From NCBI RefSeq assembly GCF_001180205.1, contig NZ_CVSU01000110.1:1-60591 (forward strand): DNA of 60,591 bases, read 5' to 3'. Positions 53,850 through 60,303 of this stretch are shown here, in pieces (within the stretch, counting starts at the first letter, position 1; the number at the start of each line of letters is the position of its first letter). The position numbers were made by a program, and so were the translations under genes. This stretch comes from Candidatus Pelagibacter communis (lineage in GTDB: Bacteria > Pseudomonadota > Alphaproteobacteria > Pelagibacterales > Pelagibacteraceae). The notes beneath the pieces are model-generated. The model made no database searches, had not been told where the DNA came from, and worked only from the letters and a program-made list of their open reading frames with translations.

Positions 53850-54377
53850 ATGAATTTAAAAGATTATATTAGATCTATTCCTGATTATCCAAAAAAAGGT
53901 ATTCTATTTAGAGATATAACAACTTTAATTAAAGACGAAAATGCATTTGCAGAAACAATTAATCAAATTATTGAAAGATCAAAAAAATATAATTTTACAA
54001 AAATAGCAGCCATTGAGTCTAGAGGTTTTGTATTTGCTTCTGCTGTCTCCTATATTCTTAAAAAACCCTTTATAATGTTAAGAAAAAAAAATAAGTTACC
54101 AGCAGATGTTCATTCTGTTGATTTTGAGCTTGAATATGGAACGGCAACGATTGAGGTTCATAAAGACTCTATAAATGAAAAAGATGAAGTTCTAATTATA
54201 GACGATTTAATTGCAACTGGAGGTACAGCTGAAGCAGCTGCAAAATTAGTTGAGATTTCGAAAGGTAAAGTTTCAGCATTTGTATTTGTAATTAACCTAT
54301 TTGATCTAGGTGGATCAGATAATTTAGTAAAAAATAATTATAAAGTTGAGAATTTAATTGAATTTCCAGGGCATTAA
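53850..54377 (+). CDS. apt: Adenine phosphoribosyltransferase
   Basis: A 175-aa type I phosphoribosyltransferase making AMP from adenine and PRPP. IPDYPKKGILFRDITTLI at the N-terminus, AIESRGFVFA, MLRKKNKLP and the PRPP loop VLIIDDLIATGGTAEAA are diagnostic. Its position opposite mtnP suggests it salvages MTA-derived adenine. Confidence 0.95.
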   Translation: MNLKDYIRSIPDYPKKGILFRDITTLIKDENAFAETINQIIERSKKYNFTKIAAIESRGFVFASAVSYILKKPFIMLRKKNKLPADVHSVDFELEYGTATIEVHKDSINEKDEVLIIDDLIATGGTAEAAAKLVEISKGKVSAFVFVINLFDLGGSDNLVKNNYKVENLIEFPGH

Positions 54378-54389
54378 AAAGCAAAAAAC

Positions 54390-54398
54390 TTATCCACA
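54390..54398 (+). promoter_or_regulatory. Perfect DnaA-box-like 9-mer TTATCCACA upstream of guaC
   Basis: TTATCCACA matches the strong DnaA box. It lies 50 bp before the guaC ATG and just ahead of a TATAAT (54404-54409) that could be a -10 element. It is single, so it is not an origin; a regulatory role or chance are both possible. Confidence 0.35.
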
Positions 54399-54447
54399 GG
54401 CCATATAATGTTTGAAATAAAATTTTATGATTATAACTTAATCAACG

Positions 54448-55482
54448 ATGAGAATTGAAGAAGAGCTTAAGTTAGATTATTCAGATGTACTATTTAGACC
54501 TAAAAGAAGTACATTAAAAAGTCGTAAAGACGTAAATCTTCTTAGAACATATAGATTTAAATACAGCAAAAATGAATGGTCAGGTATTCCAATTATGGCA
54601 GCAAACATGGATGGTGTTGGAGAATTAGGTGTTGCTGAAAAATTAAATGAATATGGAATGATTACATCATTAACAAAACAACATGATGTTAAAAAAATCA
54701 AACAAAATAAAAATATTAAAAAAATCTATCCTAATATCGCACTTAGCGTTGGTATTAAAAAAGAAGATTTTCAAAATTTAGATAAAGTATTAAAAGAATT
54801 TAGTTTTTTTAAATTCATTTGTATTGATGTTGCGAATGGATACACAGAACATTTCACTAATTTCATTAAATCTGTAAGAGATAAATACCCAACTAAAACA
54901 ATAATTGCAGGTAATGTAGTAACTGCTGATATGACTCAAGAATTAGTTCTTAGTGGAGCGGATATTGTTAAAGTTGGAATAGGACCAGGCAGCGTTTGTA
55001 CTACAAGAATTCAAACTGGTGTTGGTTATCCACAATTGAGTGCGGTAATCGAATGTGCCGATGCTGCTCATGGACTTGGTGCACATGTAATTGCGGATGG
55101 TGGATGTACTTGTCCTGGTGATGTGGCTAAAGGTTTTGGAGGTGGTGCTGATTTTGTAATGCTCGGCGGTATGCTTGCAGGACATGATGAAGGAAACGGT
55201 AAAATTGTTAAATTAAATGGAGAAAAATATATAGAGTTTTATGGATCTAGCTCTGAAGTTGCTAATAAAAAACACTATGGTGGACTTTCAGATTATCGAA
55301 GTAGTGAGGGAAGAAAAGTAAGAGTAAAATACAGAGGTAAAATAAACGATACTATTTTAAATATTCTTGGGGGTGTAAGAAGTAGTTGTACTTATGTTGG
55401 TGCGCCCTCACTTAAACAATTAAGCAAATGCACTACATTCGTAAGAGTTTCTAATCAATTTAATGATAGTTTAATTAAATAA
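54448..55482 (+). CDS. guaC: GMP reductase
   Basis: A 344-aa TIM-barrel enzyme of the IMPDH/GMPR family converting GMP to IMP. It lacks CBS domains. The opening MRIEEELKLDYSDVLFRPKRSTLKSR-type sequence matches E. coli GuaC. The catalytic Cys lies in GIGPGSVCTTR near residue 180, and LGGMLAGHDE is conserved. With apt and a further phosphoribosyltransferase it forms a purine-recycling group. Confidence 0.92.
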   Translation: MRIEEELKLDYSDVLFRPKRSTLKSRKDVNLLRTYRFKYSKNEWSGIPIMAANMDGVGELGVAEKLNEYGMITSLTKQHDVKKIKQNKNIKKIYPNIALSVGIKKEDFQNLDKVLKEFSFFKFICIDVANGYTEHFTNFIKSVRDKYPTKTIIAGNVVTADMTQELVLSGADIVKVGIGPGSVCTTRIQTGVGYPQLSAVIECADAAHGLGAHVIADGGCTCPGDVAKGFGGGADFVMLGGMLAGHDEGNGKIVKLNGEKYIEFYGSSSEVANKKHYGGLSDYRSSEGRKVRVKYRGKINDTILNILGGVRSSCTYVGAPSLKQLSKCTTFVRVSNQFNDSLIK

Positions 55483-55483
55483 T

Positions 55484-56002
55484 TTATTTTTCAAACTTAA
55501 AATCTTTAATATTTGTAGTTTCATATTTCTCAAAAGGCATATGTATCCAAGGAGAGTCTTTTAAATAATCTACAGAATAATCAGGTTTAAATTTTGAAGT
55601 TGACTTGTGCCATATAACTGCAGTTTTAATTTTTTTATCAAAATAAAATCCATAAAAATGTTCTAACCATTTAATACTTTTTATTAAAGTTTTTCCAGAA
55701 TCAGCTAAATCATCAACTAACAAAACATGTGAACCTAAGTTTGGAGTAGTTTTTGCTAAATCTCTTGAAAAAGTAAACTGTCCCTGTTGATTTTTAATAT
55801 CATCACTATCACCATGGTAAGACTCAACAGATAAAATGGCTAAAGGAACATTAAAAAGTCTACTAAAAATATCTCCAACCCTTAATCCACCTTTTGCAAT
55901 ACAAATTATTTGATTAAATTTTAAATTATCCTCATGAATTTTTTTAGCTAATTGCTCTATCTTTTTATGATAATCTTCCCAAGTTATATAAATATCTTTC
56001 AT
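55484..56002 (-). CDS. Purine phosphoribosyltransferase (xanthine/guanine/hypoxanthine type)
   Basis: A 172-aa type I phosphoribosyltransferase. It starts MKDIYITWEDYHKKIEQLAKKI. The core strand is IICIAKGGLRVGDIFSRLF and the PRPP loop is VLLVDDLADSGKTL; a Gpt-like ending follows. A longer frame to 56077 runs through the tRNA-Met fragment and is not believable, so I start at the ATG at 56002. It converges with guaC, with 1 bp between stops. Confidence 0.85.
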   Translation of the reverse strand: MKDIYITWEDYHKKIEQLAKKIHEDNLKFNQIICIAKGGLRVGDIFSRLFNVPLAILSVESYHGDSDDIKNQQGQFTFSRDLAKTTPNLGSHVLLVDDLADSGKTLIKSIKWLEHFYGFYFDKKIKTAVIWHKSTSKFKPDYSVDYLKDSPWIHMPFEKYETTNIKDFKFEK

Positions 56003-56008
56003 AATTTT

Positions 56009-56055
56009 TGGTAGCGGGAAGTGGGATCGAACCACTGACCTCGGGCTTATGAGTC
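56009..56055 (-). repeat. Copy of the 3' half of tRNA-Met (47-bp direct repeat)
   Basis: These 47 bp are identical to 57457-57503, i.e. CCA, the 3' acceptor strand, T arm, variable loop and the anticodon arm up to the GACTCATAA loop. The expected 5' half (D arm, GGCGGGG) is not present; 56056-56100 is unrelated or heavily degraded. It is a direct repeat in the same orientation as the tRNA, 1.4 kb away. This is the geometry left when an element integrates into a tRNA 3' end. Confidence 0.85.
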
Positions 56056-56156
56056 TATCGCCATGAACCCTGTTCACCTACTCTAGAACAATTACCCCTG
56101 TAAATGCTCTCTTTCCTTTCTAATGATATTGAATCAAATTAAAGAATCTTAGTCAA

Positions 56157-56175
56157 GAACCAATCTCATTGACGC
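56157..56175. repeat. 19-bp direct repeat, left copy
   Basis: GAACCAATCTCATTGACGC, differing at one base from the copy at 57404-57422. The pair brackets the DmdA-like gene. This copy sits 54 bp before its ATG and might carry a promoter or attachment-arm site. The remaining bases of 56056-56229 show no other feature I can support. Confidence 0.6.
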
Positions 56176-56229
56176 GTATATGGAGCAGGAAAATTTTCTT
56201 TAAATTAAATTTTTATCATAGTAAAAGCC

Positions 56230-57372
56230 ATGATGACAAAAAAAGAATTTGGTTTTGGGACTCAGATTAGAAAATCTCCATATTTTGATGCAACTGTTAG
56301 ATGGGGAGCAAAAGATTTTTCCGTATATAATCACATGTATATCCCAAGAGATTTTGGCAGTCCTGAAGAAAACTTTTGGAACCTAATTAATGATGCAATT
56401 TTATGTGATGTGGCTGTTGAAAGACAAGTAGAAATAACAGGACCAGATGCGTATAAATTTATTCAGTTACTTACACCTAGAGATCTTGCAAAATTATCTG
56501 TTGGACAATGTAAATATGTTTTAATTACTAATCATGAAGGTGGAATTTTAAACGACCCTGTGCTTTTAAGATTAGCAGAAAATCATTTTTGGTTATCTTT
56601 AGGAGATAGCGATATTTTGTTATGGGCACAAGGAGTTGCTATTAATTCAGGATTGGATGTTAAAATTTCCGAACCTGATGTTTCACCTCTGCAACTTCAA
56701 GGACCTAACTCAGGTAAAATAATGCAAAAGTTATTTGGTGATAGTATTAATGATTTAAAATATTATTGGTTAAGAGAATATAATTTAGATGGAATACCTT
56801 TGATTGTATCTAGAACTGGTTGGTCAAGTGAACTTGGATATGAAATTTATTTGAGAGATGGAACTAAAGGTGATGTTCTATGGGAAAAAATAATGGCAGC
56901 TGGAAAAAATTATAATTTAAAACCAGGCCACACATCATCAATAAGAAGAATAGAAGCAGCTATGCTTTCATATCATGCTGACGCAGATATTTACACCAAT
57001 CCATTTGAAGTAGGCTTAGATCGATTAGTAAGTTTTGATACAGACGTAAATTATATTGGTAAAGATGCCTTAAGAAAAATTAAGGAAGAAGGAATTAAAA
57101 GAAAACAAGTTGGGATCATAATTGAATGTGAACCTTTACAAGGACCTAATACTACTTTTTGGAAAATATTTAAGGATAATGAACAGATTGGAAAAGTTAC
57201 TTCGGCTGTTTATTCACCAAGATTAAAAAAGAACATTGCATTAGCAATGATTAATTTAGAATATTCAGAAATTGGTACAGAATTGGATGTAAAAATTGGA
57301 GATAAGAATTTTAAATCTATTGTTGTTGAAAAACCTTTTTACGATCCAAAAAAGAAAATAGCTTCAAGCTAA
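56230..57372 (+). CDS. DmdA-like GcvT-family tetrahydrofolate-dependent methyltransferase
   Basis: A 380-aa aminomethyltransferase-fold protein. Segments such as RKSPYFDATVRWGAKDFSVY, RQVEITGPDAYKFIQLLTPRDL, VGQCKYVLI, SDILLWAQG and EPDVSPLQLQGPNSGKIM resemble DMSP demethylase (DmdA) and its SAR11 paralogues more than true GcvT. It probably moves a one-carbon unit from a methylated osmolyte to tetrahydrofolate. Several differences from my recollection of Pelagibacter DmdA suggest a paralogue with another substrate. It stands alone between tRNA-Met and a duplicated tRNA half, with its own terminator. Confidence 0.82.
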   Translation: MMTKKEFGFGTQIRKSPYFDATVRWGAKDFSVYNHMYIPRDFGSPEENFWNLINDAILCDVAVERQVEITGPDAYKFIQLLTPRDLAKLSVGQCKYVLITNHEGGILNDPVLLRLAENHFWLSLGDSDILLWAQGVAINSGLDVKISEPDVSPLQLQGPNSGKIMQKLFGDSINDLKYYWLREYNLDGIPLIVSRTGWSSELGYEIYLRDGTKGDVLWEKIMAAGKNYNLKPGHTSSIRRIEAAMLSYHADADIYTNPFEVGLDRLVSFDTDVNYIGKDALRKIKEEGIKRKQVGIIIECEPLQGPNTTFWKIFKDNEQIGKVTSAVYSPRLKKNIALAMINLEYSEIGTELDVKIGDKNFKSIVVEKPFYDPKKKIASS

Positions 57373-57388
57373 GTAGCTATTTTTTTTA
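57355..57388 (+). terminator. Intrinsic terminator overlapping the DmdA-like gene's end
   Basis: A 9-bp stem, AAAATAGCT (57355-57363) with AGCTATTTT (57375-57383), has an 11-nt loop that contains the TAA stop, followed by more T. It keeps this transcript from running into the antisense side of tRNA-Met. Confidence 0.75.
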
Positions 57389-57403
57389 TTTAATCCTAGT
57401 TTT

Positions 57404-57422
57404 GAACCAATTTCATTGACGC
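57404..57422. repeat. 19-bp direct repeat, right copy
   Basis: GAACCAATTTCATTGACGC, one mismatch from 56157-56175. It lies 34 bp from the 3' end of tRNA-Met. Confidence 0.6.
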
Positions 57423-57456
57423 CTCAGATACACAAAACAGACTAATGCTTCTAGAA

Positions 57457-57533
57457 TGGTAGCGGGAAGTGGGATCGAACCACTGACCTCGGGCTTATGA
57501 GTCCCGCGCTCTAACCAACTGAGCTACCCCGCC
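57457..57533 (-). tRNA. tRNA-Met (anticodon CAT, elongator-type)
   Basis: On the minus strand this is a 77-nt cloverleaf with encoded CCA. The acceptor GGCGGGG pairs with TCCCGCT (G-U at both ends), D arm TAGCTCAGTTGGTTAGAGC, T stem AGTGG/CCACT. The anticodon loop is CTCATAA, giving CAT. G1-U72 pairing and no run of three G-C pairs in the anticodon stem argue against initiator tRNA. A lysidine-modified tRNA-Ile(CAT) is not ruled out from sequence. Its 3' 47 bases are duplicated at 56009-56055. Confidence 0.92.
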
Positions 57534-57603
57534 ATAATTGATAAATGATTTATAATATATATCTTTATTGTTTCAATAAACTTTTTTTAAATCAAATCCT
57601 AAA

Positions 57604-57813
57604 CTAAATAATAAAATAAATAGCTAATGAGCTAACTAAACCAGCCAAAATAATTGAAAAAACAATTCTTTTTTTTAAAGTTCTTTTTTGATCTAATCTA
57701 ACTCTGTTTAGTAAAATATTTACATTAGTAGTTTTAATTTTATCTACTTCAAAATCTTTATTTCTAGTAATTTCGGTATTAAATAATGATGAGTCTTGAT
57801 CTTTTTTTTTCAC
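57604..57813 (-). CDS. Small single-pass membrane protein, 69 aa
   Basis: A charged N-terminal stretch with many Lys, Asp and Asn (MKKKDQDSSLFNTEITRNKD...) is followed by a basic anchor (DQKRTLKKR) and one C-terminal hydrophobic helix (residues about 50-68, IVFSIILAGLVSSLAIYFII). The helix could make it a tail-anchored protein. No family recognised. It lies 45 bp downstream of the DMGDH-type gene on the same strand. Confidence 0.65.
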   Translation of the reverse strand: MKKKDQDSSLFNTEITRNKDFEVDKIKTTNVNILLNRVRLDQKRTLKKRIVFSIILAGLVSSLAIYFII

Positions 57814-57858
57814 AATTTATCTAACCAGCTAATTAACTTAAATACAATAAAATTATAA

Positions 57859-60303
57859 TTAAATTTTTCTAAAATCTTTTGTATTTAGTGGTTTTGAAAG
57901 TATTTCGATTGGATATTTGATCTTCTCCACTTCTATGAACAAATTTTTATCTTTAAGCGTATCTATTGTGTTTCCTGAATTAACATAGCCAAATGATAAA
58001 TTTTTATCATAGCAGAATGAATAATTTCCTGAAGTTGTCCTTCCAATGATTTTATCATCTAAATAAATAGGTTCTTCATGTAACAACAAAGGTTGGCCTG
58101 GTTTACTATCTTTTAATGTAAACATCATCATTGTCTTTTCTAAAGGTTTATCTTTAATTTTTAACAATGCGTCTTTACCTATAAAATTAAAATTTTTTTT
58201 ATAACTAATAGTAAAATTTAAACCTGCTTGATACTGATTTTCTTCTGGTGAAATATCATGGCCCCAATGTAAAAAACCACTTTCCATTCTCATTATATCC
58301 ATTGCATGCATACCACAATGAGATAAGCGAAAGTTTTTACCTTCATTAGTTAAAATTTTATATAAATCCAAAGCATAGTTTTTATTTACATATAATTCAA
58401 AGCCAAGTTCACCTACATAAGATATTCTTTGTGCCCAAACTTTTATATTCTTAATCAATACATTTTTTCCTGATCCAAATTGAAAATTTTCTGGTGAATA
58501 ATCTTCATCACTAATTTTTTGAATCATTTCTCTACTTTTAGGACCAAATAAACCAAGACAGCAAATCTCTTCTGTAACATCAATAAATTTAACATCTTCA
58601 GATAAATATTTTAAAATATGAAATTTATCTCTTTCTCTAGTTGCTGCTGAACTAACTATTCTAAAATAATTTTTATCAATACAGACAACTGTTACATCCG
58701 TTTCAATACCACCGTCTTCATTTAGCATGTGAGTATAAGTAGATTTGCCAATTTCATTTTTAATGTTAGCTGTACAAATTTTTTGTAAATCGCTATGAAC
58801 TTTCTCACCTTTTAAATCAAATTTAGAAAAAGTAGAAAAATCAAAAAGTCCTACATTTTTTCTAGCATTTATGGTTTCATGTTTTGCTGATGGATACCAA
58901 TTTTGATAGTTAAAACTATGTTCATAATCTGATTTTTCTCCATTTAAGGAATACCACATAGGTCTTTCAAACCCTCCTGCTACACCAAAACATGCACCAG
59001 CTTTTTTTAATTCATCATGATAAGGTAATAATTTTTCATTTCTAGAAGTTGAGTGTTGTTTATAAGGCCAATGCATACCATATAAGTCCCCTAAGGTTTC
59101 AGTAACTCTATCCATTATAAATTTTTTAGATGAATGAAACTTTTGAAATCTTTTTATATCAAGTGAAAATAAATCCTCATTTATATGACCATTAATCATC
59201 CATTCAGCAGTTACTCTTCCCGCTCCTCCAGAACTTGCAATTCCGATACTATTGAAACCACAGCATGTATAAAGATTTTTTACTTCTGGAGTTTCTCCAA
59301 GCAAATACTGTGTGTCAGGTGTAAATGACTCAGGGCCTGAAAAAAATTTTCTTATACCTGCATTTTCTAACATTGGGAGTCTATGAAATGATTTTTCAAG
59401 GTAAGGTTCTAAATGTTCAAAATCGTCAGGAAATTCTCCAAATGAAAAATCATCTGGAACTCTTCCATCATCTTTAAATGCAGGTTTTGCATTAGGTTCG
59501 AAAATTCCAACCAACATTTTTCCAGCATCTTCTTTCAAATAAAGACAAGCATTGTAATCCCTCAAAACAGGTAAATCTTTTGGAAGATCTCTCATTGGCT
59601 CCGTAATCACATAGAAGTGCTCATTAGGATATAGCGGAACACTAACACCAATATCTTCTCCAATTTGTCGAGACCACATTCCTGTAGCTAAAACTACATA
59701 TTCACAATCTATTTTTCCTTCAGAAGTTTCAACACCACATATTCTTTTATTTTTTATCAAAATTTTATTTACTGGTGACTTCTCAAATATTTGAACACCC
59801 AACATTTTAGCAGCTTTAGCCAATACATTTGTAACCCCAACAGGATCTGCCTGACCATCTTTTGGCATATAAACACCACCTACTAGATCTTCGTTTTTTA
59901 CTACTGGATACAGTTCTTTTATTCTCTCTTTGTTTAAAACCTCTACCTCAACATTAGATAGTTGTGCAGTTGTAGCTTGTCTTAATAATTCCTGCATTCT
60001 TTCTTTGGAAGAAGCTACTGTTATTGCTCCATTCTGTTTAAGCCCAGTTGATAAACCTGTTGTTTTTTCTAGCTCTTTGTAAAGATCTAAAGAATATTTT
60101 CTTAATTTGGTTATAGTAGAAGTGGCTCCTAATTGACCTATTAATCCTGCAGCATGCCATGTCGTTCCAGAAGTGAGTTGGTCTCTTTCTAATAAAATTA
60201 TATCTTTCCAGCCAAATTTAGCTAAATGATAAGCACAAGAAGTGCCAGCAACTCCACCCCCTACTACAACTACCTTTGCGCTTGAAGGATAGTTTTTTTC
60301 CAT
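57859..60303 (-). CDS. Dimethylglycine/sarcosine dehydrogenase-type FAD enzyme with folate domain
   Basis: An 814-aa protein with three parts. The N-terminal DAO FAD domain has VVVVGGGVAGTSCAYHLAKFG and LERDQLTSGTTWHAAGL, including the His that carries covalent FAD in DMGDH and SARDH. An FAO_M linker follows. A C-terminal GcvT-type folate domain begins around residue 430 (GVAGGFERPMWY...). It would oxidatively demethylate an N-methylated glycine, passing formaldehyde to tetrahydrofolate, as in glycine betaine breakdown. Dimethylglycine versus sarcosine cannot be separated here. It starts 2 bp after the alanine dehydrogenase stop. Confidence 0.87.
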   Translation of the reverse strand: MEKNYPSSAKVVVVGGGVAGTSCAYHLAKFGWKDIILLERDQLTSGTTWHAAGLIGQLGATSTITKLRKYSLDLYKELEKTTGLSTGLKQNGAITVASSKERMQELLRQATTAQLSNVEVEVLNKERIKELYPVVKNEDLVGGVYMPKDGQADPVGVTNVLAKAAKMLGVQIFEKSPVNKILIKNKRICGVETSEGKIDCEYVVLATGMWSRQIGEDIGVSVPLYPNEHFYVITEPMRDLPKDLPVLRDYNACLYLKEDAGKMLVGIFEPNAKPAFKDDGRVPDDFSFGEFPDDFEHLEPYLEKSFHRLPMLENAGIRKFFSGPESFTPDTQYLLGETPEVKNLYTCCGFNSIGIASSGGAGRVTAEWMINGHINEDLFSLDIKRFQKFHSSKKFIMDRVTETLGDLYGMHWPYKQHSTSRNEKLLPYHDELKKAGACFGVAGGFERPMWYSLNGEKSDYEHSFNYQNWYPSAKHETINARKNVGLFDFSTFSKFDLKGEKVHSDLQKICTANIKNEIGKSTYTHMLNEDGGIETDVTVVCIDKNYFRIVSSAATRERDKFHILKYLSEDVKFIDVTEEICCLGLFGPKSREMIQKISDEDYSPENFQFGSGKNVLIKNIKVWAQRISYVGELGFELYVNKNYALDLYKILTNEGKNFRLSHCGMHAMDIMRMESGFLHWGHDISPEENQYQAGLNFTISYKKNFNFIGKDALLKIKDKPLEKTMMMFTLKDSKPGQPLLLHEEPIYLDDKIIGRTTSGNYSFCYDKNLSFGYVNSGNTIDTLKDKNLFIEVEKIKYPIEILSKPLNTKDFRKI

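Follow-up and report, generated by a model that had tools for sequence, protein, structure and literature searches.

A single-gene insert between a tRNA-Met gene and a copy of its 3′ half

In the 60,591-nt stretch of Candidatus Pelagibacter communis DNA analysed here (the window), an intact tRNA-Met(CAT) gene occupies positions 57457–57533 on the minus strand (ARAGORN call; Rfam tRNA, 62.6 bits). Its 3′ 47 nt (57457–57503, minus strand; tRNA positions 31–77, from the 5′ side of the anticodon stem through CCA) recur with 100% identity and in direct orientation at 56009–56055 (minus strand), 1448 bp away from start to start. The earlier note's central observation, an exact direct 47-bp half-tRNA repeat at 1.4 kb, was confirmed against a chance expectation of 0: a 46-nt query allowing up to 3 mismatches found just these two sites in the window and none in 100 shuffles. 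Together with the tRNA calls, the repeat delimits a putative attachment core inside the tRNA gene, and the displaced half corresponds to the single core of an empty site in a relative (L127; see below), marking it as the distal attachment core. The displaced half lies 6 bp from the ATG (56002) of a phosphoribosyltransferase gene (55484–56002, minus strand), whose longest open reading frame (GTG start) continues through it; in the sister genomes G088 and G718, this gene also adjoins tRNA-Met or a displaced half. We take genes of the window to be APT, MTAP and GuaC; family-model scans of named window genes covered the phosphoribosyltransferase, the DmdA-like gene described next and an 814-aa oxidoreductase (labelled DMGDH) only.

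Between the repeats lies one gene and no other, as the note had stated: an intact 380-aa DmdA-like paralog of the GcvT-like family (56230–57372, plus strand). The inner ends of the insert consist of arms common to other elements. Next to the displaced half, the core-proximal part of the left arm (TATCGCCATGAACC...TTTCCTTTCTA; 56056–56127) is strongly conserved in an alignment of 16 left ends, except at two short spots (56072–56081 and 56122–56126) that are hypervariable amid conserved sequence and differ between most cassettes. It is followed by a repeat that we call X (56128–56191), whose end carries a pair of half-sites 11 bp apart, TTGACGC (56169–56175) and ATGGAGC (56180–56186), and by an AT-rich leader from X to the gene (56192–56229, plus strand) that is not homologous to the locus where Pelagibacter G078 natively carries the same gene. 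Downstream, a hairpin/T-tract and native downstream sequence were carried along with the gene (57373–57403; homology to G078 runs to 57407), and a right arm of type I (GAACCAATTTCATTGACGC...CTTCTAGAA; 57404–57456), in which the second half-site has decayed, abuts the tRNA gene. A terminator of the gene's own had been proposed; by eye, a hairpin followed by T's is visible at ~57352–57390 and is kept in the native G078 copy, but it is absent from the terminator scan list. An Rfam scan of the repeated inner motif yielded tRNA and sub-threshold matches only, and a promoter scan no excess over shuffles.

Empty and differently filled sites in relatives

In the sister genome G088 (L127), the window background aligns through a single core with no insert: window positions 54446–56055 match L127 5615–4006 at 92.6% identity and positions 57457–60283 match L127 4052–1224 at 91.0%. 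A second sister, G718 (L183), carries a different insert of 622 bp in the same background and between the same repeats. The note's proposed checks for empty sites and for other cargo in SAR11 relatives were hence positive, and the insert is an acquired unit rather than an old duplication. The direct tRNA 3′ repeat and the one-copy empty site together support tRNA-targeted integration, and the empty and differently filled sites lend weight to the idea of single-gene swapping. The presence of the repeat is all that speaks for the tRNA half having been duplicated locally long ago, or for faulty assembly; the same architecture occurs elsewhere with other cargo and the sister has an uninterrupted single core, and because this empty site exists, either explanation is practically excluded. 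What the note had named as evidence against itself, the gene and half-tRNA in all relatives or a misassembly, does not hold.

To survey the site, tRNA-Met stretches were taken from 38 other genomes (19 genomes with 20 stretches, 19 more, and a second stretch of G123), chosen from tRNA matches; arm- or X-carrying genomes were added later. In 40 loci whose stretch includes both genes, the window counted, tRNA-Met and APT were separated by 4 bp in four (L118, L119, L140, L141) and by 397 bp to 12.2 kb in 35, with one (L180) arranged differently, and the full tRNA-Met was accompanied by partial extra copies in 17 of the 50 loci that have one; the genomes having been selected and the set of 50 likewise enriched, these counts are not population frequencies. 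The tRNA-Met site is, on this comparison, an integration hot spot.

Three of the 17 partial copies are of another kind: 5′ fragments (positions 1–63) upstream of the full gene (L115 16390–16452, L128 4794–4856, L134 18361–18423), indicative of insertions of a second kind, located in the T-arm; in L190, an integrase adjoins such a site. Other arrangements included a 3.4-kb insert in G026 (L117 11197–14673) with two pilin-like genes (by eye) and diverged arms with TTGGAGC repeats, and two full tRNA-Met genes 2 kb apart in G051 (L120 2500–4605). A cassette-like layout was also seen outside the window's genus, in G086 (L204 5198–6298), where half a tRNA-Met, one 260-aa gene and tRNA-Met span 1024 bp with different arms.

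Shared ends

A left arm of ~137 bp following the half-tRNA was found in 16 SAR11 genomes, with half-tRNA-Met adjoining wherever visible; in L125 the core beside it is badly decayed, and a second copy in G668 (L188) begins at the contig edge, with its core out of view. The left arms of the 15 other genomes are 80–95% identical to that of the window, and mean column identity across the 16 aligned left ends is 84% (a seventeenth, L174, stops at a contig end and was kept out of the alignment and the size counts). Left-arm genomes numbered 6 of 397 in the family and 13 of 399 in the genus (overlapping samples), after matches covering X or less had been excluded from raw tallies of 15 and 21, respectively, at E ≤ 0.001.

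Right arms fell into two types: type I in the window, L116b, L135a, L179 and L181 and, more weakly, in L186 and L125, and type II in L116a, L173, L178, L182, L183, L184 and L187. L180 has no recognisable right arm of either type, and the right end of L185 was assigned to neither. Half-sites are exactly 11 bp apart in 7 of 10 arms inspected. Two further arms, both of L117, have TTGGAGC/GTGGAGC copies 11 bp apart counted from the common GGAGC (its left arm with one extra copy at 8 bp), and the right arm of the window is the one with a single half-site. Such paired half-sites resemble the arm-type sites of tyrosine integrases, and the existence of two right-arm types suggests more than one integrase, of which one was seen.

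Element sizes and cargo

Thirteen of the 16 elements with both ends visible are shorter than 1.65 kb and hold one or two genes; only L116b among the 16 was found to carry an integrase. From start to start, they measure 1448 bp (window), 993 (L173), 622 (L178), 1640 (L179), 1114 (L180), 1641 (L181), 3479 (L182), 622 (L183), 897 (L184), 1069 (L185), 1093 (L186), 1037 (L187), 1104 (L125), 1640 (L135a), 5160 (L116b) and 10814 bp (L116a), where L135a was taken as 1640 rather than 1638 (the core that follows is truncated to 45 nt) and L185 as 1069 rather than 2978 (a second half copy divides the stretch). The right end is recognisable in 14 of the 16.

Cargo genes encode an ArsR-like HTH protein with an ArsP permease (L179, L181, L135a), LysE (L173), a 66-aa small membrane protein below the DUF2061 cutoff (L178, L183), a 2OG oxygenase (L180), a tautomerase (L184), a protein with a sub-cutoff methyltransferase match (L186, and the same gene in L125), a dienelactone hydrolase (L187, and the same gene in L185), ASST, pirin, flavodoxin-fold and HxlR proteins (L182), and a TRAP transporter among others (L116a). 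This diversity does not bear out the methyl-osmolyte theme that the earlier note had suggested. Among 23 well-assembled genomes searched for the ArsP permease, only G123 had one, namely the cassette copy itself. Anti-phage defence as a function of the cargo was rejected: PADLOC matched two of the ten scanned proteins (that of L180 to a CRISPR-associated 2OG model and a T5orf172 protein of L116b to PDC-S57) and returned no match for the window's cargo gene.

Origin of the DmdA-like gene

The 380-aa cargo protein comprises GCV_T and GCV_T_C domains. Its score with the DMSP demethylase model, 388.7 bits, falls short of the curated equivalog cutoff of 410; the label DmdA-like, already used in the note, is therefore appropriate, while DmdA itself is not established. 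Paralogs 37–43% identical to it occur in all 16 genomes searched, and an ortholog at least 78% identical in seven of them, the window's included. In the sisters G088 (98% complete) and G718 (64%), searches for the ortholog retrieved just paralogs of 37–39% identity.

The closest relative found sits at an ordinary locus in Pelagibacter G078 (L217; 94% amino acid identity). Nucleotide identity is 91.3% over 1176 bp, from the second codon to 35 bp past the stop; a comparison of window positions 54001–59000 with the L217 stretch gave no other match, and other regions of the window are 75–81% identical to G078. A tree of 76 proteins, comprising those of the window, of G078 and of 74 out of 80 gene-relative loci (truncated and distant ones having been dropped), places the window and G078 proteins as sisters with support of 100/99. 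With dN of 0.025, dS of 0.42 and dN/dS of ~0.06 between the two, the cargo gene is under purifying selection. None of the 80 gene-relative loci (L035–L114) matched X, and only two (L074 and L081) had tRNA-Met on the same stretch. Comparison thus shows the cargo to be a copy of a gene that has an ordinary chromosomal place in SAR11.

Probable transfer between hosts

For four cargo families, the inserted units are 95–99% identical while the host flanks reach 78–81%. Unit and flank identities are 97.2% versus 78.4% for L179/L181, 98.5% versus 79.9% for L181/L135, 99.0% versus 78.8–80.5% for L173/L184 (66.8% in a shorter flank piece), 95.1% versus 78.3–79.1% for L178/L183 and 96.8% versus 79.0% for L182/L184; a further pair, L186/L125, shows 89.6% versus 74.2%. 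The high-identity stretch stops within 10 bp of the tRNA and the core in L178/L183 and L179/L181, and at the core in L181/L135 (coordinates L178 1231–1941, L179 15577–17299, L181 4373–6058). In L179/L135, 93% identity extends beyond the cassette into the flank, and no flank alignment was obtained for L182/L188 and L187/L185, leaving these three pairs uninformative on transfer. On the simplest reading, the cassettes were transferred between hosts in small form.

These comparisons bear on two alternatives. The window segment could be a deletion remnant, that is, an integrase-bearing island that lost its integrase and most cargo and kept its ends and one gene. Its ends are indeed of the same kind as those of the integrase-bearing L116b, and the half-tRNA cores of L125, L180, L185, L186 and L187 have decayed to varying degrees. 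However, units of 95–99% identity between flanks of 78–81% imply that the elements travelled small; 13 of the 16 elements are below 1.65 kb, and 14 of the 16 have a recognisable right end. We therefore consider a remnant unlikely, and the decayed element envisaged in the note less likely than a small non-autonomous cassette, given the near-identical small units in different hosts. Alternatively, an ancient integrase event could have been followed mainly by homologous recombination between strains through the tRNA and conserved flanks. SAR11 bacteria recombine often, X and the core repeats are long enough to serve, and X half-site variants have been swapped between ends in L178/L183, yet in three pairs high identity is confined to the cassette and the tRNA or core, L179/L135 being the one pair in which it runs into the flank. 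This makes recombination as the main route rather improbable.

A candidate integrase and a proposed mechanism

The note's claim that the insert lacks an integrase held up: its one long open reading frame is GcvT-like. The window's own assembly (72% complete) likewise returned no match to PF00589. In L116b, by contrast, both matching arms enclose a 337-aa open reading frame beside tRNA-Met with a PF00589 match of 82 bits and a sub-cutoff match to an arm-binding domain. A PF00589 search had matches in 12 of 18 genomes, and an integrase of the L116b type was found in 1 of the 16 arm-carrying genomes (G017). The other full-domain matches are putatively Xer-like open frames of 298–336 aa, except that G063 has a different integrase and that the match in G123, a weak one, lies within a prophage at tRNA-Met. 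This prophage-like insertion of 33 kb (L135 3322 to L134 16812) occupies the same tRNA-Met beside the ArsP cassette and includes genes for a major head protein, terminase, head-tail adaptor, tail and a 425-aa integrase.

Relatives of the L116b integrase (E ≤ 1e-20) were present in 13 of 300 genus genomes, the best at 46% identity and G017 not among the matches. In 5 of 12 loci fetched (L190, L191, L195, L200, L201) they adjoin a whole or partial tRNA-Met, so that this gene is apparently the target of integrases from several lineages. One carrier among 16 and a best relative at 46% indicate that the helper is rare or resides elsewhere. By eye, the open reading frames of L116b include no conjugation genes (four were scanned with models).

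Exact-pattern scans of IMG/VR for the arm junctions, the arm and X gave no matches, nor did a scan for the L116b integrase; the bare core alone was present, on three contigs whose integrase and flanks both differ. A phage DNA collection contained no combination of half-tRNA and arm, and its 443 records matching the integrase were all below 60% identity (35% for the best listed). No free circle or virus with the arms was found by these viral scans, which require exact matches. Separately, a complete tRNA-Met accompanied by GGTACGTACC-type repeats is present on IMG/VR contigs L220–L222, and two of these contigs also have an integrase-like open reading frame of 424 aa.

Taken together, the 1448-bp segment can with good confidence be regarded as a non-autonomous tRNA-Met gene cassette, for which a tyrosine integrase of the L116b type, acting in trans, is the probable means of movement. 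The basis is what comparison between genomes showed, namely an empty site, alternative cargo, common arms and near-identical units in hosts that have diverged. A copy of an ordinary chromosomal gene of SAR11 would have been captured between the arms, by a route that we infer, and the resulting cassette, presumably circular and equipped with its own version of the tRNA 3′ half, would recombine with the chromosomal tRNA-Met, entering site-specifically in its anticodon-to-CCA half. The cassette's copy would restore the tRNA, displacing the old 3′ half by 1.4 kb to its place beside the phosphoribosyltransferase gene. The recombinase being absent from the cassette, an L116b-like integrase, whose element has the same ends, may act in trans on core and arms, and some vehicle would carry the cassette between cells.

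X repeats and a possible second level of shuffling

The left arm terminates in X (~60 bp), and several right ends start with X-like sequence. Additional copies divide the larger elements L116, L182 and L188 or, in L184, mark an earlier tandem unit. X-bordered units recur with other neighbours, for instance an ASST gene in L182/L188 (98.4% identity), a pirin operon in L182/L184 (96.8%) and LysE in L173/L184 (99.0%). The common sequence stops at the end of X in the ASST and LysE pairs, with the other side of LysE in L184 lacking X, and begins within 20 bp of an X-like copy in the pirin pair. As both members share X and the alignment crosses it anyway, the common unit is the gene plus X, and recombination at X is not implied. 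In L178 and L183, which share their cargo, two half-site variants have been exchanged between the left and right ends.

At E ≤ 0.001, the X model matched 15 genomes out of 329 in the genus and 10 out of 247 in the order, the latter all belonging to the window's genus; some matches were weak, and the searches also applied filters stricter than this threshold. In G223, from another genus (L175 1936–5584), three tRNA-Met 3′ halves lie in tandem, and one is followed by X, which there stands behind a diverged tRNA-Met and a different, unrelated left arm. L176 has X on an 18-kb stretch without any tRNA. The window's right X-like match (57392–57422) consists in part of sequence native to the captured gene, and its inner repeat is therefore partly coincidental. 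Two other interpretations were rejected: X as a 5′ regulatory element, since the main gene points towards X in 10 of 14 elements, the window's included, and an occurrence of X outside arms, since L203, L206 and L208 matched only weakly and, on visual inspection, seem to share a single conserved coding sequence rather than X.

That X borders cargo and that units appear in different orders hints at a second, integron-like level of shuffling. A two-tier system of this kind, without integrons, in which genes would be captured between X copies, reordered at X and docked in tRNA-Met by a tyrosine integrase in trans, X serving as both arm site and exchange site, is a tentative possibility.

Relation to known systems and implications

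CIMEs are att-flanked segments without recombination genes that are mobilised by a related ICE. Like these, the window cassette has two att ends, no recombinase, and ends matching an integrase-bearing element, and tandem accretion occurs at one site (L116, L184, G123). Unlike them, the cassettes are mostly 0.6–1.65 kb with one or two genes, combine many cargos with one pair of ends, and have no conjugative partner in view. Tycheposons, in the portion of the source available, span 4–200 kbp, carry a recombinase and include tRNA-Met among their named borders (PMC10872708). The same text describes tRNA targeting, a tyrosine recombinase and metabolic cargo in streamlined aquatic bacteria, all points of likeness, whereas the window element, at 1.45 kb and without a recombinase, falls outside tycheposons as described there (PMC10872708). 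With CALINs, as far as the excerpted account goes, the system shares small gene cassettes, a repeated border site, varying orders and an enzyme from elsewhere (PMC11389934); in contrast, X is a border repeat rather than an established recombination site or attC, and every tRNA-level unit here also carries the tRNA core. The SAR11 hypervariable regions are likewise variable loci, and HVR4 is flanked by tRNA genes; no attC sites are reported there by the authors, and the sections available describe neither tRNA-Met cassettes nor common ends (PMC2217521).

Of features typical of phage satellites (PICI, PICMI), packaging and phage-interference genes are absent from the insert, which holds a GcvT-like gene only. 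As for MITEs, the ends are direct repeats, and no listed inverted pair of at least 18 nt joins the two ends. A literature search returned no report of SAR11 tRNA-Met cassettes in titles and abstract openings.

To our knowledge, recognised mobile elements are few in the very small, streamlined genomes of SAR11 bacteria, yet gene content varies. The common ends of the window cassette cost ~240 bp (core, left arm and right arm), and a cassette docking at one tRNA would offer a compact route of gene exchange among very abundant ocean bacteria. With a predicted attachment site, arms, integrase and circle, the cassette model is directly testable, and the slots that are empty or filled with a single gene in relatives point to simple gene swapping for very small genomes.
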